Source: Paragyromitra xinjiangensis (taxonomy: Eukaryota; Ascomycota; Pezizomycetes; Pezizales; Discinaceae). From it: 64,000 bases of DNA. This document shows positions 31,891-60,154 of the stretch, piece after piece. The DNA lies in contig JBCAMK010000011.1 in the NCBI GenBank assembly GCA_038503065.1, positions 1,054,001 to 1,118,000 on the forward strand, written 5' to 3'. Made by a program: the position numbers and the translations under genes. The notes below the pieces were generated by a model. It did not search any database and had not been told where the DNA came from. It saw nothing but the letters and a program-made list of their open reading frames with translations. Numbering within the stretch: the first letter of the stretch is position 1; each line of letters begins with the position of its first letter.

Positions 31891-32488
31891 TACATCAGTA
31901 AAAATTGATATAGCCGCCCCGGCCGCCTGGAGGCCGGAGCGGTCGGGCGGAATGTTACCCTTCTGTTAGGTTGCTGCTGCGTCTTTTGCCTCCTCGAAGT
32001 CTCCCTATCCTCGCGGACGTTGCAATTCTAGTGCCTTTGCCTCCTGAAGATATTGTTTCGTCCGTTGTCGCCTGGCAGCGCGCAACCTCTCTGGTAGGGT
32101 TGGTGCCGACCTGCTGGCGTTCAGGTGGGGCTTGCCTTCTGGCAGGTCGGCTTCTAATTCTGATCTCCCTGCGGCAGATACTCTCCTCTCAAGGAAAGCC
32201 GTGCTTCGGGCTGAATATCACCATATTTTAACTCCTCTGGAGGGTATTTGTGTTTCTGAATGGATATAAATTGGATATGGATTATTGATTGCTATTGCTA
32301 CTACTACCCGCTACCACGACCACTACTGCTACTACTACAATAAGGCTCCCTTCTTTCAACCTCCCGCCGACCCTCCTGCAGTCGGCGGGATGCTCACCAC
32401 CCCCGCCCAATGTGCCTCCAATACTCTGAACCCCCCTCAAATCGTTCTCCTCGCAGCTGATGCCGAGCGCTCTAAAGCCGGCAGCGGC

Positions 32489-34174
32489 TCATTCTGTCTC
32501 ATCACCCCCGTTGTCTCCACCCTCCGACGCCGGAAGATTAGCAAGGATATGCGCAATTTCTAAATTGGGGGCGGAAGGGGCAGGAAGCTCGGTATCCTGA
32601 CATCGGCGAATTGGCTCCGGCCCCTGTAGAGTCGACGACCTGCGCTTCCTTAGCTGTAGCACAACGCCTAGGCGTTGCTGATTGGTCTCAAATCCGGCCT
32701 GCGACTCACGCACATGCTTATCAGGCTGAGGAGTCATCTAAATACTATTAGTTACTGCAGCCACGCGAAGTAATAGAGGTGGCGTACCTCTCTAATTTGC
32801 TCAATAATATCCTCCAGCAGCATCTCTTGGTTGTCGGAAGTTAGTTTATCCCATGTATTGATTTGCCTATGCCAAATCGCTGCCCTGTTTATTAGCCGCT
32901 GACGCCGACTTGACTGAGGTCGGCGAGGACCTACCTATGGAGTTATTTGAGTTGAAGTCCTTAGGCTCTTCGTAGAGCCCAGTTTCCCACGCCTTCAGGC
33001 AATGATATATCATGGTTGTCGTCAGGGCAATCAAACGCGAGTTGATACTATCAAGGAAATGCTTGTCTTTTTGGCCTATCGCTCTCTTGCTGTCAAAAAA
33101 CTTCTTGTGGATCATTATCGGTATTTGTGGAGCAAGAAATCTGCCATCAAGGCTCTGCCGACCTGTCAGCAGTCGTCACAAGATCGGAGAGACCTTCTTA
33201 CCTCATACGGCTTACACGCGAACCTATCCATGTCGAGCAAATAGCAGACTTTCTCCGACATTGTCGCCATATCAAGCCCTTGTAGGTCATAGAGCGAAAG
33301 AACCGCCCCTTTCACTGTAGATAAGTAATGGGAACGTGTGCTCGATTGCTTGGCTCTTAGCTGTCGCTTGTCAGCATTTCTTGCCAACCTCAGAGGGGTC
33401 GGGGGAGTATCAGTACCAAACTTAGGCTTTCCTTATCGATTAGTGTCTCTAATTTGCAAGCTCTCTGAGCATCCGCCCAAGCTTCCGCATACCACTCGGC
33501 CTGCGTAATCACATCGGGAAAAGGCTCCCTGAAGTAGGTGTAAGAGGATATATATTGACTCGCACATTGAACTAAAGAAATCAGGCCAGGATTCAGTTTA
33601 GTATAGCTTCTTGACTTCCGATTCCGCCACACATCAACAGGCAAGGGCTGGACAGCTGAGGAAGGTCTGTAGGGTCTCGATGCCGACCTGACAGCGTTCA
33701 TCATTGGCTTACTCGCTGTAGGCGTTGACGACGGTCGAGGTGTGGTAAATCCCTGTTTGATCAACAATTAGCCTCTTCTTTTGAATAGAAGTGATATCAT
33801 ACCGTACGAAGCTGGAGCTCTCGACGGATCCTGTCAGCTTGCAGTATTTCCCTGTGTTTTGCGGTGGTCTTTTTGGGTTGCAACTGGAGAGAAGGAGCCA
33901 CCGGACCCTGAGGGTCCGACAATTCCTCGCCATCCTCCGTATTGTACTCTACATCTTCCTCCTCCTCCTCCTCCTCCTCCTCCTCTTCATACTCATAATC
34001 CTCCTCTACATCTTCCTCTTCGTACTCCTGCTGCTCCACCTCGTGGTATATACCCTTTTTGGCAGTCGTTGCCTTTGTAGGAACTCGGCGTTGAGGCGGA
34101 GGGCAGTTCGTTAGATTAGATTGCCTAGTCCTGGAAACCTTACTTCGATCATTAGTATCATTCTTTTTTGCCAT
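32489..34174 (-). CDS. Element D cargo: DUF6532-like protein
   Basis: Multi-exon minus-strand gene; the span is supported but not every splice site is resolved. It starts MAKKNDTNDRSK with a Lys/Arg-rich segment and a long Glu/Tyr run (33.95-34.03 kb, coded by GAG/GAA repeats). Later exons encode LVQCASQYISSYTYFREPFPD, a RAKQSSTRSHYLSTVKGAV block, an IPIMIHKKFFDSKRAIG block and RLIALTTTMIYHCLKAWETG. The order of these blocks fits DUF6532 (PF20149), a fungal domain of unknown function. Element C carries a homolog in the same place and orientation, so this is a transposon gene rather than a trapped host gene. Its role in transposition is unknown; DNA binding is only a guess from the charged N-terminus. 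Confidence 0.7.
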
Positions 34175-35269
34175 TTTGTGAGTAGGAGATAGAGGATTTG
34201 TGAACGTTGATTGCCGGACTCTGAGAAGTCGACGACAGCCTGCTGGGAGTTGGAGCAGAATTATAGTCAGGGGCGAAGAAATCAGTTGACACGGCACGGC
34301 TAACCTAAAACATTGCCGTTATGGGAACACGCTATGACTTTTGGGGCGGCACACCTAAACGATAGTTACAGTAACGGCAGGTTCCCCGAAATTAGATAAG
34401 GAAAGAAGGTCTGTGTCGACCTCTAGGAGGCCGGCGAATGTCGTTCGTGGTCCACGTCTAACTTAGCAATCTACCTCCACAAAATCATGAACTGTGGTGA
34501 ATCGCTTGCTAGCAAATAACAGATATCCTGCGCCAACAAAATCGAGGTAGAATAATTGCAATAAATGATTATAATGATACATGCCGACTTCTCTAGAGTC
34601 GGCGCACGCCATTCCTAGCGAGAATCAACAATCAATCACATTAAATTCGTCAAAAGGCAGGGAAAGATGTCATACCAGGGGGTAATGTGTAGACCGCATC
34701 CAAGAAATAGTACAACAGCTAAAGTCAAGACTAATGATGATAATAATACAAGCCCACCTCCCACAGGCCGGCACGAGCTATACCAAAACCACAATCAGCT
34801 TCTCGTCGTCGCTACTAAGTCAACATGGGAGAGGATGACTTACCAACAAATACAGGATAAACTGCGACTAAGAGATAGAAAAATAGCACAAATAAATGAG
34901 GAAAAGGGGTAATAGATACAAAATTAGTAATAATGATATTCACAGGTACGGTGCGGCCTCTCAGAGGTTGGCAAAAGGTATATTAATTCCCAGCCCGAGT
35001 CATTAATTGATCACCGTGACTCCGTTGACAAAGGAAGGGGGTAGCTTACCAGTGAGTAATAGAAAGCTTGCTTCCATGGATAGAAATACCCAAACCCAGC
35101 GTTGAAGGAAAAGAGGAAAAAAAAACGCCCCCCCCCGCACCACCTTACCGGCTCCTAGCAAGCCGGCACCCACCCACCCAGTTTCCCTAAAAATACTGAA
35201 ATATACCTTGCGAGAACAAATAAAAAAAAGACTCCCACCGTACTGCGCCGACCTGGGGAAGGCCAGCAA

Positions 35270-36943
35270 CTACTCCTCCCCATCCTCATTACCGTCCTCC
35301 GCATTACCGTCACTGTCGTCACTGCTCACCTCATCTTCGTCATCGTTGCCCTTCTTACCTCCACCAGCGCCCTTAGCAGCAGCAGCAGCTTTATCCGCCG
35401 CATCAGCAACCTTTTTTGCCTTCTCTGCCTTAGTCCGGGCCCTGGCAGCTTTCACTGCAGCTCTGGCTGCCGCCCTGTCAGGAGCCGACATGTACTCGTC
35501 AGTAAACCCTTCTTCGTCGGAGAAGATAGCATCGGTGACAATCAGTCGGTGCTGGGCCTTTGTTGTTTCTAGCATAGTCTGCTGACGAGCAATTCGGCGT
35601 CGGATTTTCCTCTCGCACGCTTGAAAGCCCCTATCCGTCCTAGGGAGGGGTTTAAACTTCTTCCTTACTGGGCGCTCATCATCCGATGACTCCTCCGGGA
35701 AATCCTCATCCAAAGCATTGAAGTAACGCTTGGAGATATGTGCTGGCTCGCCTGAGGGCGGCGGGGTCTGAGGAGGGGATTCCCCACCAGCAGCTGCTTT
35801 GCGATGGAGGATTATGGTGCACACTGGGCGGGGATCAGTCGTCACCCCCAGCCAAGCCTCCACCTCGTTGTCTTCTGTGAGAAGGGACTCTTCTTCAGGC
35901 CGCAACTCTCCACTCTCGGGGATGGGAACAAGGGCACCCCATACTGCGCGGGGATGGCGGTGAGGCGCATGCTTCATGGCGTATTTGAGGATATCATGGA
36001 GCTGCACCGGCTGCGTGAAGGTCGTCAACTTGCGATACATATGCGTATGATGGTCCCACATATATCCTGACCCCTTAGTCGACGAATCCTCCGGATGGTG
36101 CGCACCAACATCGTCAGGATCAACGATACGGATGACAAGAGATTTAGTTGGGGGGGTAGGTGCAGCAGGAGCAGCGCCGACCTCAGAAGGGCCGGTGGCA
36201 GCCCCATCAGTATCACCGTTATCTGCCATTTGCCGCTCTGCCAGGGCCCTAGCCGCGTTCTTCTTCTTGATGGAGTCAATGCATAGGTTTTTGACGGCTT
36301 TCTGCATAAGAGCAGTATTTTCCGCAGGCCCAACACCATTCCAGGCCTGGCGGAAGCGAGAGAGGTACTTGTGGTTTATTGCCCGCTCCTCACAGGTCGC
36401 CCAAGCTTCTCTGCCAGGGCTGTCAATGCCGGTAATACCGTTCTGGATGCAAAATGAGCTGATGTCATCTCGAACAATCATATAGGCTTGATTGTTGCTT
36501 GCATCGAAGCCCAACACAGCTTTGAACTCTGTGGCTGACATTTCAGTAGATCTAGCTCGAGGAGCGGGGGCTGCAGCAGCCTTAACACGCGGAGGCATTT
36601 TTCTGCGGGTCCTGGTCGGCCTATGGGAGGTCGGCCTGTGAGTATTATTGTCTGTTGAGGTAAGTTGCGGTGAAGAGAGCCGCGAAGAGTCTGGCGAAGA
36701 GTCTGGCGGGGGAATAAAGTCCTTTGTGCGGGGTAGGTCTGGCGAGCGACCTTGTGTGGGGGAGGGAGTAAAGCCGTATGGATTCTGCGGAGGGTACTGT
36801 GGGCTAGTGGGAGCTGCCTGCGGCCCCGCTGGAGTCGGCGAAGTTTTGGGTGGAGTATTGGGTAGCCTGGTATTGGGATCTGACTTATTGACTGTTTCCC
36901 ACAAAGCGGGAGGTTTGCTTGGTGTTTGGTCGGAGGATGCCAT
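35270..36943 (-). CDS. Element D cargo: conserved protein X
   Basis: Single-exon ORF of 557 residues, divergent from the transposase. I do not recognise a named family. In order: a Pro/Ser/Thr-rich N-terminus (1-140), a helical core around TEFKAVLGFDASNNQAYMIV...RFRQAWNGVG, a segment VEAWLGVTTDPRPVCTIIL then TPPPSGEP, a basic helix KIRRRIARQQTMLETTKAQH, and an Ala/Lys coiled stretch ending in an acidic tail. The WL.....P..CII.L, TPPPSG and R..RQQ.ML blocks recur in the element C homolog (54.6-56.1 kb). The ATG at 36943 is chosen because it follows the AT-rich leader; an in-frame start about 90 bp upstream is possible. Likely an element-encoded accessory factor; inference only. Confidence 0.75.
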   Translation of the reverse strand: MASSDQTPSKPPALWETVNKSDPNTRLPNTPPKTSPTPAGPQAAPTSPQYPPQNPYGFTPSPTQGRSPDLPRTKDFIPPPDSSPDSSRLSSPQLTSTDNNTHRPTSHRPTRTRRKMPPRVKAAAAPAPRARSTEMSATEFKAVLGFDASNNQAYMIVRDDISSFCIQNGITGIDSPGREAWATCEERAINHKYLSRFRQAWNGVGPAENTALMQKAVKNLCIDSIKKKNAARALAERQMADNGDTDGAATGPSEVGAAPAAPTPPTKSLVIRIVDPDDVGAHHPEDSSTKGSGYMWDHHTHMYRKLTTFTQPVQLHDILKYAMKHAPHRHPRAVWGALVPIPESGELRPEEESLLTEDNEVEAWLGVTTDPRPVCTIILHRKAAAGGESPPQTPPPSGEPAHISKRYFNALDEDFPEESSDDERPVRKKFKPLPRTDRGFQACERKIRRRIARQQTMLETTKAQHRLIVTDAIFSDEEGFTDEYMSAPDRAAARAAVKAARARTKAEKAKKVADAADKAAAAAKGAGGGKKGNDDEDEVSSDDSDGNAEDGNEDGEE

Positions 36944-37200
36944 TTTGCGAGGTTTATATATTACTACAGCGAATGGCATTAAACAGGGAGCATAAAGAGA
37001 GCGAAGGAGGCTGTATCTCGAAGCCTCAAACAAAGAAACGCTGATAGAGTGGTGGAGGGGGGGGTGTGGAGGAGGGTGTGGAGGAGAGCGTTGAAAGAAA
37101 GAGGTGAGGTTGAAAGAGCAGGAGGTCTAGCGATTGCCAAGCCTCATGGCTAGGATGATGTCATTCCGCGGAAAAGCCTACAAATACACTATATGAATGA

Positions 37201-37221
37201 GCCGACCTCTAGGAGGTCGGC
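37201..37221. repeat. Best copy of the element-D palindromic motif
   Basis: Perfect palindrome-like site: GCCGACCTC, three bases, GAGGTCGGC, between genes X and transposase. More than 20 imperfect copies or half-sites occur across element D (for example near 32109, 32367, 32908, 33684, 34581, 36617, 38280, 39190, 40536). Candidate transposase-binding or element-marking site. Confidence 0.8.
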
Positions 37222-37491
37222 TGGGAGCTTCTATGGCTAGTCTAACACTTGGCAGCACTTTTCTAATATTATAGAGTGGTCGTAGAGATTGAGGATCCTG
37301 ATGGCGCTGGTGTTGTGCGGCTCTGCAGTCGCTTAGTCATACCCCTCAACATCACCCTATTCTCGCGATCCTCACGATCCTCGCCTAATACCACATCTAT
37401 CAGCACTTCTATCAGCTCCCCTATCAGCACTTCTACCTTCTCAATTGCTCTCCGACCTCTACGCGGCTGCAGCAGTATTATATAGCTGATT

Positions 37492-40400
37492 ATGCCTCAG
37501 GTTTGCCCTTTCTGTCGCCACACCTATCTTTATTCTACAGCCTGGGAGACTCATCTCAAGAATGAGCATGAGCTGCTGAGCAAGCAGTATTTCCCACGCT
37601 TATTCGGCAATCCATCAGCCGGTCAGCAGTCGTCGGCTACTTCCTTCGAGTGGGAGGATGATATAGAAGAGACTGACGAGAATTGGGGCCCTACGAATAC
37701 TCTGGATATGCCACCAGAGTACGACTCGAACGAAGAGCCTGTTGGAGCATCTGATGAGGAGAATGAGGCTGATTCTACGCTTCGTACCTCGACAACTGCT
37801 ATCACCTCCTTTCCGGACGCTGGGAGGTCGGCTGGCGAAGCAGCTGGCTTTCAGGAGGCTCAGAAAAGACTGCTTGACGATCCTATATTTCCGTTCCACA
37901 CCTCATATGATTTCCACCTAGCAAAATGGTTTATTGACACCAAAACGACGAAGACTGGCATTGAAGATTACTTCAAGAAAGGTCTATATCAAGGTGCCGG
38001 CTCCTATCGGTCCGCCTATACCCTTTTCAAGGTCATCGAGAACCTACCCACAACTTTAGAGGCGCCAAGTTGGGAGTTTATGGAGGAGGTAGTGGATGGA
38101 GAGTCCTTCGTGCTGGCACATCGCGATCCAATAGTCTGTATTCGATATTTAATTAGCCAAGCAGCTTATTCAAAAGATATGGTTTATGCTCCTATACGTG
38201 AGCTCAATCTTGCTGGTGAGCGCATGTATTCAGAGCTCCATACAGCTGATTGGTGGTGGGATTTACAGGTAACGCCTGCGACCTCTCAGGAGCCGGCGCT
38301 TCTTGCTAATCGGTTATAGGAGACTCTTCCTTCTGGCTCCACAGTCGTTCCAGTTCTTTGCGCATCAAACCAAACCCACCTCACTAACTTCTCTGGAGAT
38401 AAAAAGGCTTGGCCTATCTATCTGACGATAGGCAATATCAAATCCACAGTGCGAAACAAAACGTCAGCAATGGCCATGGTGCTTCTGGCACTTCTTCCCA
38501 TCCCCCCTAAGTTCGGCAAGCTGAAAACGAAAGAAGCCGAAGCTCAAAGAGTCAGGAATCGAGTGATCCTTGATTTGGTCATGGATAAGGTGCTGTCAGC
38601 TCTCTACGAGCCGGCAGCGAACGGCATTGAGCTGTCGTGCGCTGATGGGCAACTGCGATTCTGCTTTCCAATACTCTGTGGCTGGATTGCCGACCACCTG
38701 GAGCACGTCACCCTGCAGCACATGAAGAATAACTGTTGCCCTGTGTGTGAGATTGACGCTGAGAATCTAGGCCAGCTAACTATTTTGCCCTTCAACACCC
38801 GCAATCACGAAGAGTATAAGGCCAAGGCGCAGCAATTTGGGGACACAGGCAATATCAAGAATTTAGATTGGCTTCAGGAGAGAGGTCTAAAGGCAGCAAT
38901 GAATAGCTTCTGGCGACTTCCCAGAGTCCGGCCGGAAGAGATCTGGAAACCGGATCTTCTTCATACTATCTATCTCGGCTTATTGAAGCATTTAATGGAG
39001 TGGATACAGGGCTTACTAAAAAAGCATAATCGCCTCGATCAATTCGACAGAGCATGGAAGTCTATTCCCCCGTATACTGGTATTACTATCCCTAAAAAGG
39101 CCTATCGGGAGGTTACTCAATGGCAAGGAAAAGAAATGCGGAATCTCGGGCGGTTTCTACTAGCAGCGTTGACCGTCGCTCTGAGGAAGCCGACGGCTTC
39201 AGAGAGGCCGGCGTTCAAAGAAGCCCTCAACTGTACCCAAGCCCTTCTAGACTTCCACTTAATGGCTCAGTATCGCAGCCATACAGAGTAAACCCTTGGA
39301 TATATGGAGGATTATTTGACAAGGTTTCACAAGCATAAAGACGTCTTTCTAGAGTTTCGCAGGTCGAAGCAGGTGACTGCTAAAGCAAAGCAGGCAGATA
39401 CAGTACTGCGACTAACACAAGAGAAGGCGCTGTCGACTGCTCAGCGTACGGCAAACAAAAAGCGCAAGGCAGCTGTGGAGGATCGACTAGAGAGGTCTGA
39501 GCAGTTGCAAGATATCTACCGCCAAGAATCCCATTTCAACTTCATCAAAATACACCTTTTGACTCACTTCACGTCCCATATCAGGCAATTTGGCAATATA
39601 CCCAGCTACTCCACAGAAGTCGGCGAAGCCTCGCACCAACAGCAAATTAAGGTTGGATACCGTGCCTCCAATAAACACAACGCCACGAAGCAAATTCTCG
39701 AGCACTATTCCCGCCGCCACACAATATCTATGCATGTGGTGTCAGTTCGAGAGGCAGCTCGTGAGAAGTCGGCAGAGGACCTAGGGAAGGAGGTGATAGA
39801 CCTTCTACAAAAAGAGATGCCTTCTCTGGCAGAGCTCGATATTCGGTCAGAATACCGGCCACCTCGGGTGCTACGGGGCCTCGTCAGCACTAAAAGGACG
39901 AAGTCACTGAAAGATGTGGCTTATGAGCTTGGGGACCAGGAGGATCAACTTGTGCAAAAGGTGGTAGACTACAGCAACAAAAGCTTGCCGGACCCCCACA
40001 AGCTGACAACCAATATACGGAAGTTGCTACATTATCCAGCCGAACGATTCAAACAGCTTCAACTGCCGGTGCTCAAATTCCAGGAAACTGATATATATAC
40101 CATACATCGCCTTCGTTGTACGATTCAGGAGCGATTTCGAGGTGCTGCGCCAAGAAATGATTGGGTATGGGTGGCTGTAGGTGACGAGACTCAATTCGGT
40201 GCCTTACGTGGGCGTTTACCTGGTCAATTGAGATGTTTATTCAAACTGCGGGACCCTACAACCGGATACAGTCATCGTTTAGCACTGGTAAGAATGCTCC
40301 GGGTGGAGGGTGCCGGACGCCTAGAGTCCGACAGCAGCTTGGTGAGGGTGGCTTCACGCAAAGTAAACACACCATATAGTGATGAATGGGTTATTAGCGT

Positions 40401-40503
40401 GGCTTCAATTATAGGCATGGCGCACCTGATTCCAGACGAGGAAGAGGAACAATGGTTGGTAAACAGTAGAATAGACCTAGAAACGTTCAACGATATCTAT
40501 TAG
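37492..40503 (+). pseudogene. Element D Plavaka-type transposase with one nonsense codon
   Basis: Exon 1 is 37492-38268 and exon 2 is 38320-40503 (intron 38269-38319). The protein starts MPQVCPFCRHTYLYSTAWET with a C-x2-C-x12-H-x4-H finger, then an acidic linker. Conserved blocks follow: FHTSYDFHLAKWFI, MVYAPIREL, ADWWWDLQ, LTNFSGDKKAWPIYLTIGNI, CPVCEID, PDLLHTIYLG, QYRSH and IHLLTHFTSHIRQFGNIPSYS...GEASH...YRASNK. The last resembles the hallmark of fungal Plavaka transposases. A TAA at 39289-39291, directly after QYRSHTE, interrupts the frame; the element C copy has no stop there and the same frame continues to 40503. Residues that could act as the catalytic acids (Asp in PDLLH, Glu in GEASH) are present. 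Truncation rather than degradation suggests recent loss. Confidence 0.85.
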
Positions 40504-41381
40504 GATGTGGAGTAGCGATGTACAAAGCCTTTTACCGACCTGCTAGAGGTTGTCGTTGTATTATAAGTAGCTGAATAAATTGGATTATGCAGGAGTAGCG
40601 ATATCTTCCAGGTGCATCAAAATCAAAAGCAGCCCCGCCATGAGGGCAATAGGGGCAAATCGAAGCACCAGGAGGGCGTTTCACCTCCTAGAAATGAAGT
40701 ATGGGGAGAGTATTTCCGGGCGGTGATGTGATATAAGCAGGCTCTCCAGGGAGGGTGCCGGACGCAGAGAGGTCGTTCAGGAGAACTAAAGACGCAGGCA
40801 AATCTCCTAGGCGGCCTAGGCGGTAGGGCGGAATATGTACCTAGTGGGCGAGAATTTTTTTTTACTGATGTAGGTACTACATATACGTATATGTTTCTCT
40901 TAATGATAGACTACGCTAACCAAAAAATTGGAAGCATTTCACTTCAAGAGTGATATCTGCATACCTTGCCAATAGCCACAAGACACAAGCAACCTTGGAG
41001 GAAATGCCAAACGAGTTATCGCGAACTGATAACAAAGGCTTAGGGGAGAGCACAGGGAGGAGCAGCTCTCCACCAGAGCGAAAGGGCCAGCAAGCCCCAC
41101 CGGCGCCTGCCACGCAGCCTACGAACCAGAACTTAAAGGGAAATTCAAGGAGCAGCAACTGCTCGCCTAAGCCAGATAGCCAACAGATTTCGCTGACTCC
41201 AACATATATACCAGTCCTGGGAATTCGGAAAGAGTGGCAAACAGCTAAATCATTAACGAATCTTGGTAAGGCCATTGTAGTCCGCGAGGAACCTTTTCAA
41301 ACCACTAACTATAGGCACGCTTAAACAAAAATTAAAGATTCAGAAGAAACCTCATTTTCCCCTTCTACAGACTCTCTCCCT

Positions 41382-42654
41382 ATGGATAATGGCATTGATA
41401 ATATTCCTCTCCCTTATACCAAGGTTACTGGAGCGTCAAAAATGGCCCAAGACCAACAAGCAAGACCGAGGCCTGGGGCCGCGGCTACAACGGTAGGATA
41501 ACTCAAATGATTTTGGAAAGTCTCTAATTCTTTACTTTAGGCAGGGCTGCTAGTCGAACGAGGTCTTATCATCAAAGAATTATTCACATTCTGCGTACAG
41601 GCGTACCAGGAAGTTCTTCCTCTAATTCGGGAGGTTGCCGAAACCTCAACCCGGATAACGTGGGGGGAAGAGTGGGGACGGTTTAGGTTGTGGGGTGGTG
41701 ATTATGCTGTCCTCGAAGGCGAACTTGACCAACTCCTTGCAGGTGCAGAGTTTAAGTACCTCAGGGTATCTGCAGTTATCCCCTTGTGCAGCATTGCACA
41801 TCAGCAAAAACAAACGACATTCCTCTGTGGCCTATTTGACCTCTGTGGCCTATTTGGCTCCTATTTGGCCTCTGTGGCCTCTGCAGAGGTCAACATTCCT
41901 CTGTGGAGGTTTCCGAGGAAATTTCAATATTTTCCTCTGCAGAGGCCACAGAGGCCACAGAGGTCCAAATAGGAGCCAAATAGGTCACAGAGGTAAGAAC
42001 ATGATCCTAATTTCAAATAGGTCATTTTTTGTTCTTGCTGATGCAAAGACACTAGATGCATGCTTGTCCGGTCTTAGAGGATCCATTCCTAAGGCAGCTA
42101 AGCAAGATTCGACAACCTCTAACGATAAAGTTATCGATCTCAACTTAGAGCTGTGTACATTGTTGGAAGTTGTCTTGAGCCTTATGCCTAAGGCAAAGGG
42201 TATTATAGAACCGAACACAAGTGACGACAATATTTCAGAGCTCGGCCTACCAGATGCCGCTGAAGACATAAAAGAGGCATTGAATTCATTATTCGACCTT
42301 GTCTCTTTTATCGAGGAGCTATATATGGCCGTAGGAGAGGCCCCTGTGGAAGGGCGTAGACGACTACGAGTATTGCCTGTCGAATCCGCAGGCGACCAAA
42401 CCTGCCCCGAAGCTCAATTTTACGAGATTAACATCCAAGACAAATTTCCAAAGATAAACAAGCAGCTAGCTGAGACGTTGGCCAAGATAAACTGGACACG
42501 ACATCGCAGAATCCGGGAGTGGGCTGAAACTACGGGGGCGCGTTGCTACCAAAGTCCAATTAAGGATTTTCCGAAAATCTCGCTTAGCTACATGTACCTT
42601 AGCAAAAACCTTTCTGCGCCTACAAGATGTAATGAACTATTTTCGCTTTGCTAG
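41382..42654 (+). pseudogene. Hypothetical gene interrupted by MITE F
   Basis: Reading segments are 41382-41492, 41541-41798 and 42046-42654. The intron 41493-41540 has GTAGGA and TTTAG ends. The third segment continues in frame with the second once the 245-bp element F and one CA copy are discounted. The uninterrupted product would be 325 residues. It is mostly helical (FCVQAYQEVLPLIREVAETS, LNLELCTLLEVVLSLMP) and ends with a basic helix, KINWTRHRRIREWAETT. That layout recalls N-terminal regions of fungal acuF-like / C2H2-type proteins, but the match is too weak for a name. With F present the frame is broken unless F is spliced. Upstream DNA (40.95-41.32 kb) is open for 124 codons and might belong to the same gene. 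Confidence 0.55.
41799..42043. mobile_element. Element F: 245-bp MITE of the CATCAG family
   Basis: Left end CATCAGCAAAAACAAACG; reverse complement of the right end CATCAGCAAGAACAAAAA. It is flanked by CA on both sides (41797-98, 42044-45). The interior is a near-palindrome built from CCTCTGTGGCC / GGCCACAGAGG and CCTATTTGG / CCAAATAGG words, so the whole element could fold into a long hairpin. No coding capacity of its own. Subterminal CTCTGTGG words also occur near the left end of element C. Confidence 0.9.
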
Positions 42655-42718
42655 CGACTTGTAGCAGCATGTTAGTCAAAGAATATATATTTAATATACC
42701 CCAAGGTTGAATATTTTA

Positions 42719-48949: not shown

Positions 48950-50828
48950 CATCAGCAAAAATAATTATTTCCTCCCTCAGCTCCAGGAGGCTCGGGAGGC
49001 TCGGGAGGCGCTGGAGACTCCTGGAAAAAATGTGCCTACCTGGAGGAGCGAATGGTGACCAACCTCCTTCGGGAGGCACTGGGAGGAGCCAGCAAGCACT
49101 CCGGGAGACTCTAGGAGATCGATATAGGCGCTCCTAACGTGCCATGGAGAGCTGTGGAGAAGCATAAGTTATACCTGTCACCCTACTCAATTCACTGATG
49201 TCACGCTGTCACTCAGGTTTTGAAAATTATTTTGACTAATTATTGACTATCTAATGGATCTATATACATCGAACAAGTCCCCGCATCCTCCTACTTGCCC
49301 CGCTGCATCCTACTCCTCCTACTCCTCCTATTCCGAGCCTGCTGCTGAGCTTGCCCTGGAGTCAATTTGGAGGCAGAAAAGCACGGGATTCGGAGTCTAT
49401 TCAGCAGTCTATTCAGCAGCCAATTCAGCAGGATTCGGAGGCAAGCAGGCAGCTGCTTCGGAGGCTGCTCGGGAGGAGGTTCGGGAGTCGATTCGGAGGC
49501 AGGAAAGCACGGGATTCGGAGTCTATTCAGCAGCCAATTCAGCAGCCAATTCAGCAGGATTCGGAGGCTTAGAAACAGCTGATTCGGAGCCTATTCAGGA
49601 GTCAATTCGGCAGTCAATTCAGCAGGATTCGGAGGCTCAGAAACAGCTGATTCGGAGTCTATTCAGCAGTCAATTCAGCAGCCAATTCAGCAGGATTCGG
49701 AGGCTTAGAAACAGCCGATTCGGAGTCTATTCAGGAGTCAATTCAGCAGGATTCGGAGGCAAGCAAGCAGCTGCTTCGGAGGCTGCTCGGGAGGAGGTTC
49801 GGGAGTCGATTCGGAGTCAATTCAGCAGTCAATTCGGAGTCTATTCAGGAGTCAATTCAGCAGGATTCGGAGGCTCGGAAAGAGCCTATTCGGAGGCAGG
49901 AAAGCACGGGATTCGGAGTCTATTCAGCAGGATTCGGAGGCTTGGAAACAGCCGATTCGGAGTCTATTCAGGAGTCAATTCAGCAGGATTCGGAGGCAAG
50001 CAAGCAGCTGCTTCGGAGTCAATTCAGCAGTCAATTCGGAGTCTATTCAGGAGTCAATTCAGCAGTGGATTCGGAGGCTCGGAAACAGCCTATTCGGAGG
50101 CAGGAAAGCACGGGATTCGGAGTCTATTCAGGAGTCAATTCAGCAGTCAATTCAGCAGGATTCGGAGGCTTGGAAACAGCCGATTCGGAGTCGATTCGGA
50201 GTCTATTCAGGAGTCTATTCAGCAGTCAATTCAGCAGGATTCGGAGGCTCAGAAACAGCCTATTTGGAGGCAGGAAAGCACGGGATTCGGAGTCTATTCG
50301 GAAGTCAATTCAGGAGTCAATTCAGCAGTGGATTCGGAGTCGATTCAGGAGTCGATTCGGAGGTAAGCAAGCAGCCGATTCAGCAGCTGTTTGGTCGTTG
50401 ATTTCGCGGGTAAGGGGCCTATTCAGAGTTAGCTACTGTGCACGCGTCTATGTTGGAGATGCAGGAGGGGAGGAGGTATGGGCGTCGCAAAGGGGGTTAA
50501 AAGGGGTGGGTGGATAGGGGTGGGCGTTGGGGCAGCAACGGGGAGTTGAAAGAAATTCTTCTAAGTCCCTAAGCGAGATCCAATAGTCTGCGATTCAGGG
50601 AGTCTCTGGCAGTGGTGTTGAGGTCCAGGAGTGGGGTGGAGGCTCAGCATCGTGCCTTTGGCTCATGGAGGATACAGCATATCTCGGGAGAAGCCATATC
50701 CTCCGGGAGATGCAGGTCGGGGCGCTCGTGCCTCCAGGCGCCCTGGGAGCGCACGGAGCGCCTGGAGGAGATTGCCTCCCCGGGAGACGTGCCCATGCTC
50801 CTGGAGGCGTTAATTATTTTTGCTGATG
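48950..50828 (+). mobile_element. Element B: second copy of element A, inverted (1,879 bp)
   Basis: Same 18-base terminal repeat as A, flanked by CC (48948-49, 50829-30). Subterminal sequence is almost identical to A over several hundred bases; the array is about 400 bp longer. It lies inside E. Confidence 0.92.
49370..50370. repeat. Internal array of element B
   Basis: Reverse-complement form of the element A units (GAGTCTATTCAG, CAGTCAATTCAG, GGATTCGGAGGC), with more copies than A. Open frames across it are products of the repeat, not evidence of a gene. Confidence 0.9.
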
Positions 50829-51439
50829 CCTGGTACCTGCAGGAATGAAGGACTGTGCTCCAGCACACCCCATGGACCTCGCTTGCATGGCCATGGACCT
50901 TCCTGGAGCTCCTGGAGCTCAGCTTCACGGTCCGTGGTCCTCTCTGGAGTTTCGTACCCATCTCCGGTGCCAAACAGGGTTCGCTTTTCTAGGTCCATGG
51001 TGCTCTCTGGATACCACTGAAGTGTGTACCCCCACTCCACCAGCGCCCTGAGGCACGTACCTGCCCTCTATTAGACCCCCGAATTGCGCACCCCGCTGAC
51101 AGGAGATCGCAGGACTTGGACCTCGCTTGCAAGCGACAATCAATAACACTGACCTTAGGGACTTAGCGAATTTTTGGTGAATGCCTTTCGCTGCCACCCG
51201 TACCCTACCGTTGCCACCTTACCCCTATTCTCCAACTCCCACCCATTCACACCCACCCACACCCCCTTTTGCCCTTCCCTCCCTACTTTGCAGTTACATG
51301 AACTTTGCTAACATCGTGACTTCAGTTCCCACATACATTCAGACATCGTTGACAGCAGACATAGGACCCTATTACATCGGACCTCGCTTGGTCGGACCCC
51401 TTCAGCCGCAGACCCCTTCAGCAGCAGACCTCGCTCGCT

Positions 51440-51834
51440 TCCACAGCCTGCTGAATCGACTGTGTGAGAGCCTCCCGAGCAGCCTCCGAATCGGCTGTTT
51501 CTAAGCCTCCGAATTGACTCCTGAATTGACTCCTGAATAGACTCCGAATTGGCTGCTCAATAGACTCCGAATCGACTCCCGAATAGGCTCCGAATTGACT
51601 GCTGAATTGACTGCTGAATAGGGTCCTAAATAGATTCCGAATCGACTCCGAATCGGCTGTTTCTGAGCCTCCGAATCCTGCTGAATTGACTGCTGAATTG
51701 ACTGCTGAATAGACTCCGAATCGGCTGTTTCTAAGCCTCCGAATCCCGCTGAATTGACTGCTGAATTGACTGCTCAATAGACTCCGAATCAACTCCCGAA
51801 TAGGCTCCTGAATAGGCTCCGAATTGACTGCTGA
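51440..51834. repeat. Element E internal array, left part
   Basis: Same ~12-base unit family as in A and B. Cut at 51834 by insertion of element C; the array resumes at 60155. Confidence 0.88.
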
Positions 51835-52373
51835 CATCAGCAAAAAATTCATGTTCCTCGCTGGCCTCTGTGGAGGCCACGGAGGCCACAGAGGCCCGCG
51901 AGGAAACTTATGAATTGCAGAGGCATGAGCAACGCTCTGCGTCTCGCCGAGGCATGAACAAGGTCCTGGCCTCGCCGAGGTATTAAGCGACGTCCTAAAT
52001 CTTGCCGAGGACGTAGCTCGTCGCTTCGCTCTCCAGGGAGTTCGTTTACAGCATCCTAATTCTCCCTGAGGACCCAGCTCGTCGCTCTAATCTCGTTGGT
52101 TATTGAGCACTTTGTGCTTGATTCTCGCTGGGATTAGGACCAAATCATCCCTCTATGGAGAAATCACGACTTGGTCTAACATCTCTACAGAGTCTTTGCA
52201 CTTTGCTCGCTTGCTTTGTGGAGTCCTTTGGATTTGCCAATATGATTATGATCAGATTCCTGCCTTCAAGCGTCCAAATAAGGACGCAATACGGCTTATT
52301 ATTTCATTCCTATCTATCCTTCGCCATTCTAAGTCTATTACACAAATAATCGAAATATCCAAAATATCTAGCT

Positions 52374-54163
52374 CTACAGGGCTTCTCTCCCATCTCCTCC
52401 ATGGCCAGCGTCCACTTCCCCAACCCTTTCATCCACTTCCTCGACCCCCTCGACCTCCTCGACCCCCTCGTCCCCCTCGACCCCCTCATCCGATTCCTGC
52501 CGAACTTCGTCCTCTTCTAGCTCAATATCGTCCAATTGGTGATGTTCCTCGTCTAAAGAATCGTCCATAGGTGGTCGATCCAAAACCTCAGGCTCATCAT
52601 TCTCATCCTCACCCTCTCCGTCCGAAATGACCTGGAAGTCGAGAAAATCATCTGCAGCCGGATCTTCATATGCTTCTACAGAGTCGTATGGAGAAGCCAC
52701 TGCAATTCTGTTGCTCTTCTTCAGCAGTGCTTTAAGGTCTCCGAGAATCTTGGCTTTATTGGCGTCAGGCAGCTTATTCCAGGTCCGCAGATGCCTCATA
52801 TATTGCACTATCAGACGATATGAGTATTGAAACAGACGAATTGCGGCCTTTTGATGACTTACTGATACACATATCAGATCTAAAATCTGGAGGTTTAATC
52901 CATACACCTGTCTTCCAACCTTGCAGCCCTTGCCCGAGAGAGGTTGCCACCAAAATCACGAACCTATCGTTGATGGCAGGAAGAAAGCCAGGATCGGTAT
53001 ACCCCTTTTGTCTTTTGCCCGTAAAGTATTTGTGATCTATGAGCTGTTTGATTTGTGGAGCTGCAAATCTCCAGCCGCAAACCTACTACTATTAGACGAT
53101 ATTCGGCTGAATATGGACGGGTCACGTACATACGTCATACTTCTTGGGGTGGCAGACATATCGATCGTTTTCAAGGAGATAGGTTGCGCGATCCTTCACT
53201 GCGTCAGAAGCCAAGCCTTCGAGCTCATAAATCTTGAGCAGTAAGTCTTTGATTTCTCCAGCCATATATGAGCGTGCGGAAGACTGTTTTTGCTTCAGCT
53301 GTAAAATCGTATAATCAACATATAGGACGAATAACAGCTTTTTAAGGACGAGGTACGTTTGCAAGCACACCTCTGCGAATCGGGATCTGTGTCAACCCGT
53401 TTTCCTTTATGACTTTAAACCACAAGCTTTCCACATATTGGTCGTTCTTCGCTGGAGCAACAAAGCCTTCCTTGAACCAGACATCATAGCGTATCAATTG
53501 ACTAGTGACGTGAAAGATTTGTCGCTCGTCACCTTCAAGGCCTATTGCAGCTGTTGTGCGGCTACGGCGTCCACTAGGTGTAATACTTATATCAGTACTT
53601 CCTGAATTGGCGAAAGAGACACCAGAAAGGACGGAATGCGTCGGAGAACGGCCGCGACGCGTCGGGGTAGATAAAGTGCTACTAGTAGGTGCTCGCATAC
53701 TATTCCGATGGGATGAAGACCGACCATGCTTGTAATCGCGATATCAGCGTTGATAATTAAAGAGATATGGAAAAGGCAGTATTACCAGTTTCAAAAGAGA
53801 TCGCTTCTTTGGCACGCGCTCTTGCTCTTCTAATGGTGAAGCAGGACGTTTTCCAGCTGCAACATGACGCGTTACAGCCTCTATCTCCTCAGTATAGTCT
53901 TCATCAGTCTCGCTGTCTAATTCCACGCGCTCGGTGGGTGGATCAGATAGGTTACTAGCAGAAGACGAATTATGTGATCTATGTGGACGCCCTGCGGCAG
54001 TAATAGAACGCGTTTCATTAGTGGGGTTTTGACGCGTTATATGCCCTAAGCTCGTTAGATAACGGTTGAGAATGAAGTTCATGATGGATGTGTTTTGATA
54101 CGTACTGTCCTTTGGAGGTTTTGATGTGTGAGTTGATTGCTTCGGGTGTTTGTGGGTGGGCAT
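52374..54163 (-). CDS. Element C cargo: DUF6532-like protein
   Basis: Resolved exons on the minus strand are 53786-54163, 53357-53728 and 53134-53298; a further exon near 52.85-53.09 kb and a last exon ending at 52374 complete it, with less certain borders. The N-terminus is basic and Ser/Thr-rich. Then come a YDVWFKEGFVAP block, a KQKQSSARSYMAGEIKDLL block, an APQIKQLIDHKYFTGKRQKG block and a VILVATSLGQGLQGWKTGVW block. These align with the element D protein and with the general pattern of DUF6532. A very acidic C-terminal tail (52.4-52.65 kb) follows. The function is unknown; conservation of gene, order and strand between two divergent elements indicates a real transposon gene. Confidence 0.7.
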
Positions 54164-54473
54164 GGTAGTCTTATGAAGGAAGGAGGATATGCATATGCAC
54201 AAAAATGGAAAGGGACGAATATCAGCTGAGAGAGGACGATATCAGGCTAATAAAGGAGAATGAAGAGTTTTCACTGCTGACATATCAATGACTCAGCAAA
54301 TATTACTGCAACGACTTGCAACACCAAGAACCAAAGATCACCAAAATCGCTATCAATTGTAGGATATACTAAAACTAAGAATAGAGATATATAAAACCCA
54401 AAGAAAAGAGATAAACCATAGAATAACCAAAATAAGACGAATATAGTCCCCCAGCAGCCAAAATCCAAACCCC

Positions 54474-54599
54474 CCCCCCATACCCACAGCGGATCGATCT
54501 AAGAATAATGAAACGGAACCCAAAGCCAAATCCAAGACAAAAGAAACCCAAAAAAAAAAAAAAAAAAAAAAAAAACAAAAAAAAAAAACCCCAACCGAA
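54474..54599. repeat. Homopolymer runs downstream of gene X in element C
   Basis: A run of eight to nine C near 54,472 and a run of more than 20 A near 54,550. Such runs are prone to length error in sequencing and assembly. Confidence 0.8.
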
Positions 54600-54611
54600 T
54601 ACCGTCCGTAT

Positions 54612-56060
54612 CTAACCTCCACGCCCACGACCACGACCACGACCACCACGACCACCACCACGAGCACCACCTCTTCCTCCACGTCCAGCGCCAGCACCAG
54701 CGCCAGCACCACCAGGTGGCACCCCCGCTGCAACCCGGCGACGAACTACCCACTCCAAAAGCAATCTGACCCTACGCTCTGCAGGAGTTTCTGGGCGATT
54801 CAAGCCCACGGGGCCAAAGGGGACGGGATTCGGCGGAATAGCTCCTCCAGCGGCGGTAGCAGCAGTGACCTCAGGACCATCAGCCCAAGCATCATCAGAT
54901 TCCATTTGGTTTTCTGCTTTAGCCGCAGTCTGTCGAGCAGGGGTAATTCCCGGATACCAGCCAGCTTCATGCTCAGAAAGGACGTTCTCCGGCCCATATC
55001 TGCCGCGAGCAATCACCTCATAGCGCCGAAGCATAGCTTGCTGGCGGTCCCTCCTGGCGCGAACCTTATTCATCCTCCTCTCGATACCATCCCGAGTCTT
55101 AGGCATACGCTTCCGCCAGGTTGCTTGGTCTTTTCCATGACTGTCGTCCTCCGAGTCTGATGGAGGATCGAATATATCGAATGGTGGACGATACTCCAGC
55201 TCTATCAGGTGAGGACGACCGCTGGGAGGCGGCGTATTTGGTCTGGCATCCGTCTCCTCACGGTATAGCTCAACGATACAGGTAATGGGGGCGGCGCTGC
55301 TGATAGCCAACCAGCCCTGGACCTGCTGGTCGTCAAACAGCTCCGTGATATCAATGCCATCAGGTCTGCCATCAGCAGCTCCAGCCGGAGGGCCAGCTAA
55401 ACCGCCGTATAACGTCCTTATGGATCTGCCCCGCGGCAGGGCACGAGCTGCAATAGCATACAGCGAGATGAGGGTGGGATTATCGACATATCCAACATAT
55501 GCCCGATTCGAAGCATGGTTCCAGGCATATGGCACACGAGGAGCTGCAATTGGCCCAGCAGGGGTTTGGGCCGTTGGGTCTATGGTAATGAATCGTACTG
55601 CCTTCGGAGGGAAAGCCAGGGGTGCAGTTGGGCCTGCCGCAATGACAGGACCTGCTCCGGGTACTGCAGAGGGGCCAGCAACGCCTAAAATGAAGACAAT
55701 ATTAGTACACAAACAGACGAATACCGTCCTAGATCATTACTTACTGATATCTTCTCCCAAATCGTCGCCAAGGCCTTTCAATCCTTCCCGGACCTTCTTC
55801 ATACAATCCTGGACCATAGATTCCAGGGCAGCGTGGAAATTCTTATGCGGATTATTCCGCGTATTATGCGTAGCTTGGTATTTCGGCAGCTGAGCGACGA
55901 GATTCGGATGCTGCATGGTATAGTCCAGCAGCTCTTGATATCTAGGGTTTTTGGTATAGAAAACCCTATTCGTAGTAGCCCAGGCGCTGACATACTTCCG
56001 GACGGCAATGCACTGTGCATTCTCGAGCGAGAGGTGAACCTTCCACTCAGCAGTCTTCAT
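54612..56060 (-). CDS. Element C cargo: conserved protein X
   Basis: Exons are 55745-56060 and 54612-55684 on the minus strand (GTAAGT donor, TTTTAG acceptor, phase agrees), giving 462 residues. It starts MKTAEWKVHLSLENAQCIAV with a helical first exon. Exon 2 has a Pro/Ala-rich linker, then VPYAWNHASNRAYVGYV, VQGWLAISSAAPITCIVEL, TPPPSGRPH, RMNKVRARRDRQQAMLRRYE, and a C-terminal arginine-glycine (RGG-type) tail suited to nucleic-acid binding. The WL......P.TC, TPPPSG and R...RQQAML blocks also occur in the element D protein, but that one ends in an acidic tail. No named family recognised. Divergent to the transposase, as in D. Confidence 0.75.
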
Positions 56061-56859
56061 TGCGGCGTTTATAGAGGCTGTTTGACGTTTCTATAGAGAC
56101 GAATTACGGCAGATTATAGGATATTGCTGATGTTTGGTGCTATGAGGCGTAGAATGGATGAGATATGGAGCAGAGAGTAGAGAGTAGAGAGTAGAGAATA
56201 GGATATATAGTAAAATATGAAGTTGAAGCGGATCATGGTGGGCTAATGAGGGGTCAATAGATGCTGCTCTTATAGGGAAACAAACTTATCAAGTTGATCA
56301 GTATGTGACGTATATCAAAGCGCTCGGGGCCTCTGAAGCCTCAACATGAATAGATGGAACGCACCTTGATTCGGACGATATCCGTCGCTTGTCGTATAGA
56401 TATAAGAGCAGTCCCGCAAATATAAATAGCATCTTTGTGAGGTTTTCATGTTGATCAAGCTGGAATTGAGCTTCCATTGTCCTTCAAAATCCGAGTGAGA
56501 TCGCGTGAATTGATGTGGCAGACCTCTCGCTAAGACGGAAGTTACCATGCCGCACCCCGTCCTTAGCATGTCTCAGCTCGTCCCCAACCTCCTCTGTGCC
56601 GCCTGATTTCAGCCTCCTTGATTGTTTTAGGCGTATTGTGCCGAGTAATGAAGTCATGTTTCGCCCTATTCAGCTTGAAACACCCTAGCGTCAAACTAAT
56701 AACAAGGTTTAGCCTTGTTCCTGACCCTGGATGCCAAGAAAGCTCGAAATAGTAACCCGCCAAACATCTCCTGTGACACTGCCAGCAACCTAAACAAAAG
56801 CTCCTTTGCAGCCAAAGTAAGTCCTTTTCCAGACGTATCGCGTCCTTTTCTAACTGAAT

Positions 56860-59753
56860 ATGCCTTCAGCTTGCCCTCATTGCCGCCTGCAGTTCAGATA
56901 TGGGGGAGCTCTTCAAAATCACCTTGCAAATAAACATCCAAAACTTCCACGGTCTGCACCACAATCAGAATCAGACGAGGATGATCGTTCCGACGACGAA
57001 ATTCGGCCACTGTATTCTGACCTCCCGCCAAACCTGTCAAATGGTGACTCAGACTGCGAAAGTCTATCGGAGGTGGAGGATGAGGAGGACGACAACGAGG
57101 AAGTGGATATATCTACCTTTCCTGGCGCCGGGAAGCCTGTAGGGGACGCGGAGAAGTCAGTATACGACGAAGTGCAGCCGTGGCGCACCTTTTGATAGTG
57201 AGAAGGACTATAAACTTGCTCGTTGGTTTATCCAAAGCGGGACCCCAAGAGAACAAATCAATCAATTCTTTGCCGAAGGACTCGCTGGCAACAGTTCCTT
57301 CAGCTCCAGCTATACGCTGATGCAGAAAGTCGACCAGATGGAATCGAGCCTTGGATGGTCGAGCTGGATGAGTGGAGAGGTTGAGTTTAGTACTGGCGAG
57401 GATGTGGTGAAGGAGGGAGTGGACGAATTACGTCCTGATTCTTCAACATCATTCTTCTACCGGGATGTTGTTGCTTGTGCCGCCTATCTATTAGCTTTCA
57501 ATGCATGCTATAATCTCGGATATGGTATATGCACCAATTCGAGAGTCTAATAGTGAGGGACATAGGATGTATTCAGAGATGCATACTGCCAATTGGTGGT
57601 GGGATACTCAGGTTCGTCCTCTAGATATTTTGATTCGTCCTATTGCTGACTTTATTCGTCTTTTCTTGATCTAGGAAGAGCTTCCATATGGGTCAACTGT
57701 CGTTCCGATAATCCTTTCCTCTGATGAGACTCACCTGACGAATTTCTCTGGAGACAAGAAAGCGTGGCCAGTATACATGACGATAGGCAATATCAAGTCC
57801 CGGACGAGAAACAGCCCTTCCATGCTTGCAAACGTCCTCATAGCGCTGCTTCCCATCCCTCCGAAGTATTCTGGCTCCAAGCAAAAGGACGATGTGCTAC
57901 GGAAGCGAAGTCATGATATTCTCAAGGAGGTCCTCGAACTGATTTTGGAGCCATTGGAGGAGGCTGGTAAAGGTTTACCAATAGACTGTGGAGACGGCAA
58001 ACGGCGCCAGTGCTTTCCTATACTTGCTGCTTGGATTGCGGACCATAAGGAGAATGTGACGCTGCACAACATTGTTGGCAACCTTTGCCCAGTTTGTGAA
58101 GAGGACGAATCCCGGCTGGGAGATCTTCAATATCGTCCGGCAGATCTTCGCAACCATACGGAATATATAAAGCTTTTTGAAAGGTACGAGGCAGGGAATG
58201 ATGAGGCCGGCAATGAGTTGGAGCGACGGGGAGTTAAACTGACGCGTGGCGTCCTTTGGGATCTTCCATTCGTCCAATGTAGCGACTTACCCAAGCCGGA
58301 CCTCCTACATGTCGTATATCTAGGGATCTTTGTTCATTTGATGGGATGGCTGATGGCCTTTTTGAAGAAGCATGGCCGCAAAGAGCAATTTGACGAGATC
58401 TGGAAGGCTCTTCCACCCTACCCAGGATTCGCTGCACCAAAGAAGGAGTACAGCCAGGTTAGTCAATGGCAGGGAAAAGAGATGCGAATGTTGATTCGGA
58501 TCCTTTTACCGTGTCTTGCAGCCGCACTTCGGCACCCAACAGACAAGCAACGTCCGGAGTTTGATAAAGCGATCAGCTGCGTCCGGAATTTGGTAGATTT
58601 TGCACTGATGGCTCAGTATAGAAGTCATACTGGAGAGTCGCTTGATTGGATGGATACATATTTGAGGAACTTCCATGCAGATAAAGAGGTATTCCTGACT
58701 TTTAGAAGTGGCAAAGGGACGAAACGCGGCAGTCGAGCACTTGCAGCACAGTTGCGAGCGCAGTATCAAGAGGAGCTTGATGCACAGAAAGGACTTTCTA
58801 AAGCCGCCCGCCGTCGTCAAGAAGCCGAAAATCGTCTTAGCATTCAGGCGGAGGTTGAGCAGTTCTCTAGGGATAACGCTGACTTCAACTTCCCTAAAAT
58901 CCACTTGTTAGCCCATTTCCATGACCATGTCGAACGCTTTGGAAACATACCCTCCTTCTCCACAGAGCTTGGAGAGAGTAGCCACAAGGCGCTGAAGCTT
59001 AGCTACCGGAGGTCTAATAAGAACGATGCCTCCACTCAAATTCTCAACAGTATGGCACGGCAGCACACTTTCCAGATGCGGAATATGAATGAAAGGGACG
59101 AATCTAAGCCGAAAGAAGCTCCCGTTCGTCGTTTGGGATCTAGAACATCCCCCCGACTGGTCAGTAATGTTGGACAAGCCGCTAGATTTTGCAACGTACC
59201 GAACCTTGCTACTCTAATTGCAGCATACTGGCGCCGAACAGCCAAAATACAGCCAGTACCGGACGAAATTAGGCTTGCCGAGTTTGCTGCTCAGCACTAT
59301 CGCCTACTTCGGATACCAGTGAAAGGGTTTCAGGATGAGAGTGAGTGGGAATGGCATTTCGCGCGGGCTACAGGAGAAACGATTTGGCGTGGCTCAGGTC
59401 GAGCAAGATCAGATTGGGTATGGGTATTTATGGGAGATGAAAGCCGGTATGGAGCATTGCAAGGACGAATTCCGGCGGAATTACGCTGTCTGCTGAAAGT
59501 AAGAGGAGAAGGTGAAGCGGTGTCGATGCGTTTGGCGGTCGTTGAGCTTTTGGTTCCAGAACAAAGCGGGGCTTTGCAGAAGCCCCATCAGCTTGTGCGC
59601 GTCGGAAGAAGGACGAATAGGAGCCTGACATGTGTTAATATTAATTCCATTATGGGCATCGCACATTTGGTCCCAGAGCAGGCAGGAGCGGAGAATAGGA
59701 AATGGTTTGTAAATAGTAGAATAGATCTGAAGACATTTAATTTAGTATGTTAG
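56860..59753 (+). pseudogene. Element C Plavaka-type transposase with two frameshifts in exon 1
   Basis: It starts MPSACPHCRLQFRYGGALQN with a C-x2-C-x12-H-x4-H finger and an acidic linker, as in D. Exon 1 ends at 57611 (NWWWDTQ), the intron is 57612-57674, and exon 2 (57675-59753) is fully open. Two reading-frame shifts occur in exon 1: near 57,180 (before PFDSEKDYKLARWFI) and near 57,520 (before DMVYAPIRE); both sides align with D only in different frames. Exon 2 holds LTNFSGDKKAWPVYMTIGNI, CPVCEED, PDLLHVVYLG, QYRSHTGESLDWM, IHLLAHFHDHVERFGNIPSFSTELGESSH and YRRSNKN. The first shift could alternatively be an unrecognised small intron. The intact exon 2 suggests recent inactivation. Confidence 0.83.
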
Positions 59754-60154
59754 AGATATAAATATAAGAATGATAGAATGTGACGAGATTCGTCAGATAA
59801 AGGACGTTTGAAGAATGAATGAAATATTAAGTCAAAGATCTATCAAACAAGCCGACAGTCTCCACAGAGGGCCTTTGAAAAGTAAATACTCGCTAGAGGA
59901 AATAGGACCAAATTATAGTCTCAATAGAGCGCGGGAATCAGTTATCAGACTTGTAGAGAGTAGAGCGATGTTCGGTGCCTCGGCGGGGAATAGAGGGATG
60001 TTCAGTTCCTCGGCAGAGGTCAGCGAGGACGAAAATCGTCCTTCTAGCGACGCGGAGGCTGCCGAGGCAAAATACATTAAGCTAATTTCCAGCGAGGTGA
60101 CCGAGGCATGAGCAACGCTCACAACTCTATTGAGGAACACATTTTTTGCTGATG

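Follow-up and report, generated by a model that had tools for sequence, protein, structure and literature searches.

Plavaka transposons, which are said to have been named by Iyer et al. in 2014, are represented by two elements, here called D and C, in a 64-kb window of contig C11 of Paragyromitra xinjiangensis (the window being the whole stretch of DNA that was analyzed), and each of them encodes a transposase, a protein termed X and a protein with the domain DUF6532. According to the available part of the description of PlavakaB (Kojima 2025, PMC12730594), that group has a PF18759 transposase with catalytic D, D and E and the motifs C(2)C and H(3-4)H, CATCA..TGATG termini and target site duplications (TSDs) of 2-3 bp. 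The partner genes found in the same part of that paper are TET/JBP dioxygenases, and neither X, nor DUF6532, nor site arrays were found there. D and C are like PlavakaB in the transposase family, the termini and the TSD.

Among the plant transposons, VANDAL is a Mutator-like element. It consists of three genes (the VANA transposase, VANB and VANC), and the VANC proteins of Arabidopsis, as presented in the accessible parts of two papers (PMC5735166; PMC10398659), bind motifs that are specific to the family and make their own elements lose methylation. The likeness to D and C lies in the three genes and in the repetition, along the element, of a short motif specific to the lineage, which in VANDAL changes together with its protein. 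On the contrary, VANC contains DUF1985/DUF287, whereas Pfam scans of the X and DUF6532 proteins show neither domain, and VANC sites are located in non-coding tandem repeats, whereas the sites described here are spaced dyads, mostly dispersed and present also in coding DNA.

TNPA of the CACTA elements is a transposon-encoded protein acting on subterminal repeats and needed for transposition (PMC2613891, available part). The TNPA-TNPD system of CACTA/EnSpm resembles the present one in its separate DNA-binding accessory protein, a place which X would take by analogy, and in its lineage-varying repeats; moreover, the Plavaka transposase is placed near EnSpm in the accessible text of PMC12730594. 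The two differ in that TNPA sites are subterminal, in gene layout and protein families, and in the termini of D and C, which are CATCAG and not CACTA.

In the initial annotation of this DNA, X was not known to have been described. In agreement with this, no account of X, of DUF6532 as a Plavaka partner or of such arrays was found in the literature covered, which lay mostly outside subscription journals and was covered as listings and excerpts. In the accessible text of a Ganoderma genome paper (PMC8955403), a single sentence lists both DUF6532 and Plavaka under additional domains and draws no link between them. The Pfam annotation of PF20149 and PF24465 gives no function. By analogy, the present case would be a variant of transposon-encoded sequence-specific self-recognition, a kind of system already known in outline.

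The three genes and their linkage to Plavaka elements

The common gene order in D and C is DUF6532(-), X(-), Plavaka transposase(+). Both elements and all three genes were confirmed as initially annotated (table 1), and so were the CATCAG termini, which are flanked by the TSDs TA and GA, respectively. In detail, D begins with CATCAGTAAAAA from 31893 and ends with TTTTTACTGATG up to 40870, and C begins with CATCAGCAAAAA from 51835 and ends with TTTTTTGCTGATG up to 60154; when the two ends are compared over their first 20 bases, 14 match in D and 15 in C. The minisatellite in which C is located resumes across a single GA when the flanks of C are joined. A third element of the genome, L042, also has PlavakaB-like 5'-CATCA..TGATG-3' termini and the TSD TA. 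The termini and 2-bp TSDs of D, C and L042 fit the terminal features given in the available part of PMC12730594. The initial annotation had treated 31893..60154 as one span; its two elements are real, but the segment between them (40871-51834) is unrelated and holds a portion of a gypsy element together with a long inverted repeat and a minisatellite.

The third gene was annotated as DUF6532-like. Exon borders were set by eye in the DUF6532 genes, as in some X genes, and since the PF20149 scores of the DUF6532 proteins (table 1) exceed the curated cut-off of 24 bits, these are true members of the family. The alignment between the X proteins of D and C, of which blocks had been noted before, extends over ~270 residues with 28% identity (E 2.9e-11 and 3.9e-12 for the pair in genome searches) and also includes an N-terminal helical domain. 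X is built of this helical domain, which is weakly similar to the Tri-helical family PF24465, a core with the signature ..DP..Y.W..T...L......P..R..R...G.........L.DDEDV..WL........V.LHR...TPPP, and a low-complexity tail. In C, in L041/L047 and in the group L043, L044, L046 and L049 (hereafter L04x), the halves of X lie on separate frames, as if in two exons. The PF24465 matches of both proteins are below the cut-off of 27 bits (D: 21.4 bits, E 3.5e-4, residues 211-288; C: 19.6 bits, E 1.2e-3, exon 1). Structure prediction, proposed in the initial annotation, was moderately successful for the helical domain (pLDDT 73, from two sequences), with no clear PDB relative of this model, and poor for the two-domain model.

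Linkage of the trio was followed through the 48.2 Mb (22 contigs) of this one genome, with profile-search counts that are lower bounds. At least 125 matches were obtained for PF18759 and at least 88 for PF20149, which merge to 99 and 83 loci, respectively. Of the 83 merged DUF6532 loci, 59 have a Plavaka match at no more than 10 kb, where 1,000 rounds of random placement on these contigs gave a mean of 6.1; 55 are divergently upstream of the match within this distance (random mean 1.7, maximum 7), 41 of which are at 3.96-5.2 kb. The tie between DUF6532 and Plavaka thus stands for most loci but is not exclusive, as 24 loci are further off (12 of them at 11-18 kb, the others beyond).

In this genome X hardly occurs outside Plavaka elements. 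Merging the matches of X from D, X from C and PF24465 gave 67 loci. At 59 of them a transposase of the Plavaka type is arranged head-to-head with X at no more than 6 kb (random mean 0.9, maximum 5), and at 50 a DUF6532 gene follows X downstream in the same orientation. The other eight X loci include five with DUF6532 downstream and three with neither DUF6532 nor a divergent transposase. All 11 PF24465 matches of the genome (six above the cut-off) lie divergently beside Plavaka. Stand-alone occurrence of X and DUF6532, which the initial annotation had named as evidence against its reading, is therefore not the rule in this genome.

The 99 merged Plavaka matches divide into 45 with both partner genes, 16 with X only, eight with DUF6532 only and 30 with neither. 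Four of the last class were read (L049-L052). Because L049 proved to contain both X and DUF6532, and L051 and L052 have reverse-transcriptase frames near the transposase, this class partly reflects search sensitivity and broken copies. Every one of the 11 stretches with X that were read (D, C and L041-L049) also encodes DUF6532. Copies of one family are not independent, yet the trio recurs over a deep divergence, in the five lineages of the transposase trees, that is, D with L045, L04x, L041 with L047, C with L048, and L042. Chance is excluded as the source of this linkage. Protein searches toward the same linkage in other fungi returned no match, the DNA collections covered not being known to include another fungus. 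From these sequence data we infer that the three proteins may have a joint job in transposition.

Lineage-specific site arrays

A lineage-specific two-part site was found in eight of the 10 X-bearing stretches scanned for all pairs of 5-mers (each made of three or more different letters, the spacing ranging from 0 to 23, with corrected E values). In D the site is CGACC-N7-GGTCG (9 against 0.4 expected, E 3e-5), and the same pair is present in its relative L045 (13 against 0.6, E 5e-9). Each of the four L04x stretches has AGGAT-N7-ATCCT 25-30 times, against 2.3-3.0 expected (E 2e-12 to 9e-17). C is characterized by GGACG at a 21-bp distance (direct CGTCC-16; 21 against 1.7, E 1e-11), and L042 by AGCTC at a 21-bp distance (direct AGCTC-16; 25 against 2.9, E 8e-11). 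The scan of L041 was clouded by low complexity and that of L047 showed no inverted pair; CGCCCAA is common to both.

The geometry of the sites is sharp. In the spacing spectrum of D and L045, n=7 gives 22 pairs where the other spacings average 1.0, and in the four L04x stretches 109 where they average 8.3 (sd 3.8). The D lineage and L04x have an identical 5-7-5 geometry with different half-sites; similarly, C and L042 have an identical 21-bp direct period with different half-sites. In five control stretches (four others of the window and gypsy coding DNA) no inverted pair was counted six or more times, and one of them had a direct-repeat match (E 1e-4). Seven stretches were compared with 12 Markov simulations each: D, C, L042, L045, L046 and the low-complexity L041 exceed all 12, and the inverted pairs of L047 do not.

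The sites recur roughly every 200-400 bp, mostly dispersed, in non-coding and coding DNA alike. The 8-mer AGGTCGGC occurs 11 times in D, which includes all copies of the window. When up to two mismatches are allowed, 26 of the 41 D-type dyads of the window are inside D (2.90 per kb against 0.27 elsewhere). C holds all 21 direct C-type sites of the window and 10 of the 11 GGACG-N5-CGTCC sites. Across the genome, the D-lineage pattern CCGRCCTN4GAGGTCG was counted 69 times (two places on both strands), against once for the reversed pattern. Within 8 kb of a transposase match lie 57 of the 69, and within 8 kb of a transposase, X or DUF6532 locus 68, such zones making up 4.4% of the genome.

An arrangement of this kind could belong to a TnpA-like accessory factor. 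X and DUF6532 would then synapse the ends and repress or time promoters, and the internal sites would serve regulation and DNA packing instead of anti-silencing. The position of Plavaka with CACTA/EnSpm (PMC12730594, accessible text) agrees with this, as do the D- and C-sites located between the X and transposase genes and the motif CCTCGGC, of which the outer 180 bp at each end of C hold three copies (its whole-window count of 10 is not above chance, mean 7.7). TNPA, however, works on subterminal repeats (PMC2613891, available part), whereas the present sites span the whole element and its exons, and we regard the TnpA-like role as rather unlikely.

The arrays might also be a by-product, that is, hairpins or repeats spread by conversion or slippage with no reader, with X and DUF6532 as hitchhiking passengers. 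Some sites are indeed near-perfect palindromes, and copies of a family share site positions by descent. Against a by-product, the geometry persists as the sequence changes, and in open frames of at least 200 aa the lineage motif exceeds 500 synonymous-codon shuffles in all nine stretches (p 0.002-0.008), although most of these motifs had come from the very stretches tested, with their coding parts. In a stricter test, the top 7-mer of non-coding DNA was picked blindly and scored in coding DNA. Within the same stretch, three of nine showed an excess (p < 0.05; L044, L046 and L047), D a borderline one (p 0.063) and the other five none. In relatives, excess was found for the 7-mer of D in L045 (8 against 1.4, p 0.003), of L047 in L041 (7 against 0.8, p 0.003) and of L044 in L046 and L043 (p 0.010 and 0.030, respectively); one unrelated pair was also in excess (L046 motif in L045, p 0.010).

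Half-sites are moreover conserved above their own spacers. From L044 to L046 conservation is 0.956 in the half-sites, 0.818 in the spacer and 0.783 in the flank (p 4e-20). Half-sites were kept above spacer and flank (p < 0.05) in all 11 AGGAT and in nine of the 10 CGACC comparisons, which share sequences and are not independent; in the comparison of L045 to D (p 0.068) the spacer is kept slightly better than the half-sites. Throughout the analysis the statistics are Poisson or shuffle-based. These are signs of selection at the DNA level for recognition sites through the transposon, coding DNA included, and an origin as a by-product appears very improbable. A host factor as the reader, for example, a silencing complex tuned to each lineage, is scarcely credible, as the separate code of each lineage and the half-site conservation fit a benefit to the element.

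Candidate reader of the sites and proposed role

A C2H2-like finger at the N-terminus of the transposase is recognized by pattern in all 13 long stretches (D, C, L041-L050 and L052) and in three of the six four-kb loci. This finger might read the sites, in which case X and DUF6532 would do something else. It does not, however, run parallel to the site: L042 has a finger resembling that of D (YSTSFETH, YSTAWETH) but different sites, and L045 has D-type sites but a different finger (YSSALITH). The placement of L042 also differs between the trees. In the transposase tree L042 is grouped with D and L04x (97/97), and a grouping of C with L042 is rejected (p-AU 0.013). In the X tree L042 is grouped with C (90/96), the alternative placement not being rejected (p-AU 0.13). 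The DUF6532 tree gave no resolution, and branches are long in the trees. The site geometry of L042, the C-like 21-bp direct period, agrees with the X tree and disagrees with the transposase tree. As the fingers do not track the sites and the geometry of L042 goes with the X tree, X, or X with DUF6532, is modestly favored over the transposase as the putative reader, and reading by the finger seems distinctly unlikely.

In our estimate the odds are about even that X works as a dimeric DNA-binding factor, perhaps in company with DUF6532, and labels the element that encodes it as protection from silencing, for transposition or for both. What is observed here is the set of genes with its linkage, and the arrays with their sharp geometry, lineage specificity and conservation; X would be the reader, would act as a dimer and would affect the element by its binding. 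Plavaka elements would then be three-gene transposons with their own address code, in which X, probably as a dimer and perhaps together with DUF6532, would bind the two-part site of its lineage throughout the element and label the element as self. The likeliest use would be that the chromatin of the element is kept or made active against host silencing, as with VANC of VANDAL, and that the marked element is made a substrate for its own transposase. The arrays suggest that a DNA-binding partner recognizes the element as self, and such recognition could be of use in transposition, in anti-silencing or in both. The host genome has four C-5 methylase matches, all above cut-off, and four TET/JBP matches, two of them above, which makes a methylation-based defense plausible.

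A further reading, which we put slightly below an even chance, is that this code is re-programmable. X would represent a new family of DNA-binding proteins that keeps its dimer geometry and swaps the half-site letters by lineage, with sites even in the reading frames of the element's own genes, so that each Plavaka lineage would recognize only its own DNA in order to resist silencing and move. Two unnamed protein families gain a concrete and testable role from these proposals. If X reads the sites, several lineages would offer natural protein-site pairs for the study of a re-programmable DNA-binding fold, and fungi would own a sequence-specific self-recognition like that of plant VANC, separately evolved.

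Features and surroundings in the window

Table 1. Positions of elements D and C, their genes and their site arrays in the window
Feature	Position	Strand	Remarks
Element D, PlavakaB-type transposon	31893..40870	+	CATCAG...CTGATG termini; TSD TA at 31891-31892 and 40871-40872
D-type dyad array CGACC-N7-GGTCG	31920..40775	.	26 sites, at most 2 mismatches; within and between the three genes
DUF6532 gene of D	32489..34174	-	Several exons, borders by eye; PF20149 84.8 bits
X gene of D	35270..37126	-	One open frame, 618 aa stop to stop; PF24465 below cut-off
Plavaka transposase gene of D	37489..40503	+	PF18759 59.8 and 187.2 bits, two pieces; N-terminal C2H2-like finger by pattern
Element C, PlavakaB-type transposon	51835..60154	+	CATCAG...CTGATG termini; TSD GA; sits within minisatellite
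Left subterminal CCTCGGC of C	51946..52010	-	3 copies
C-type site array	51988..60052	.	GGACG twice at 21-bp distance, 21 sites; GGACG-N5-CGTCC, 10 sites; at most 1 mismatch
DUF6532 gene of C	52374..54163	-	Several exons, borders by eye; PF20149 60.4 bits
X gene of C	54612..56090	-	Two open frames, intron starting ~55744; PF24465 below cut-off
Plavaka transposase gene of C	56854..59753	+	PF18759 176 bits; N-terminal C2H2-like finger by pattern
Right subterminal CCTCGGC of C	59978..60067	.	3 copies

The PF18759 scores are to be read against a cut-off of 26.3 bits. The transposase of D has two in-frame stops. The one at 38317-38319 probably lies in an intron, and the other, at 39289-39291, is located where the frame of C is open, so D may not make a full-length transposase.

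The four top-scoring DUF6532 copies of the genome (L009-L012, 68-72 bits) are located 7.6-27 kb from the nearest Plavaka match; the two that were read, L009 and L010, are nearly identical and were not recovered with the C and D proteins. At G000:C12:824328-835023, a TET/JBP-like match below the curated cut-off has a DUF6532 match and two D-lineage sites at ~9 kb, and no Plavaka match closer than 72 kb.

Element C is located between the halves of a gypsy-type element with long terminal repeats (42719-64000), seemingly longer than 21 kb. Its 70-base repeats at 42719 and 63931 are 99% alike, the second one cut by the end of the window; gag and reverse transcriptase (RT) are at 45409-48839, and RNase H, integrase and chromo at 61382-63742. 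A long inverted repeat (43942-50828), whose arms (947 and 584 bases) show 100% complementarity, surrounds the gag/RT part; it may stem from a recent inverted duplication or be an artefact of the assembly. The minisatellite, with 11-12 bp units (GAATTGACTGCT-like) in both orientations, occupies 44400-45040, 49280-50380, 51476-51834 and 60155-60890.

Upstream of D, ankyrin-repeat proteins are encoded at 15633-18452 and 21314-22054, the former being NLR-like in its TPR and DUF7779 matches, and their DNA contains 99-base repeat units that are 61-88% like the reference copy. A DUF7580 protein frame of 537 aa (28125-29738) adjoins element D.

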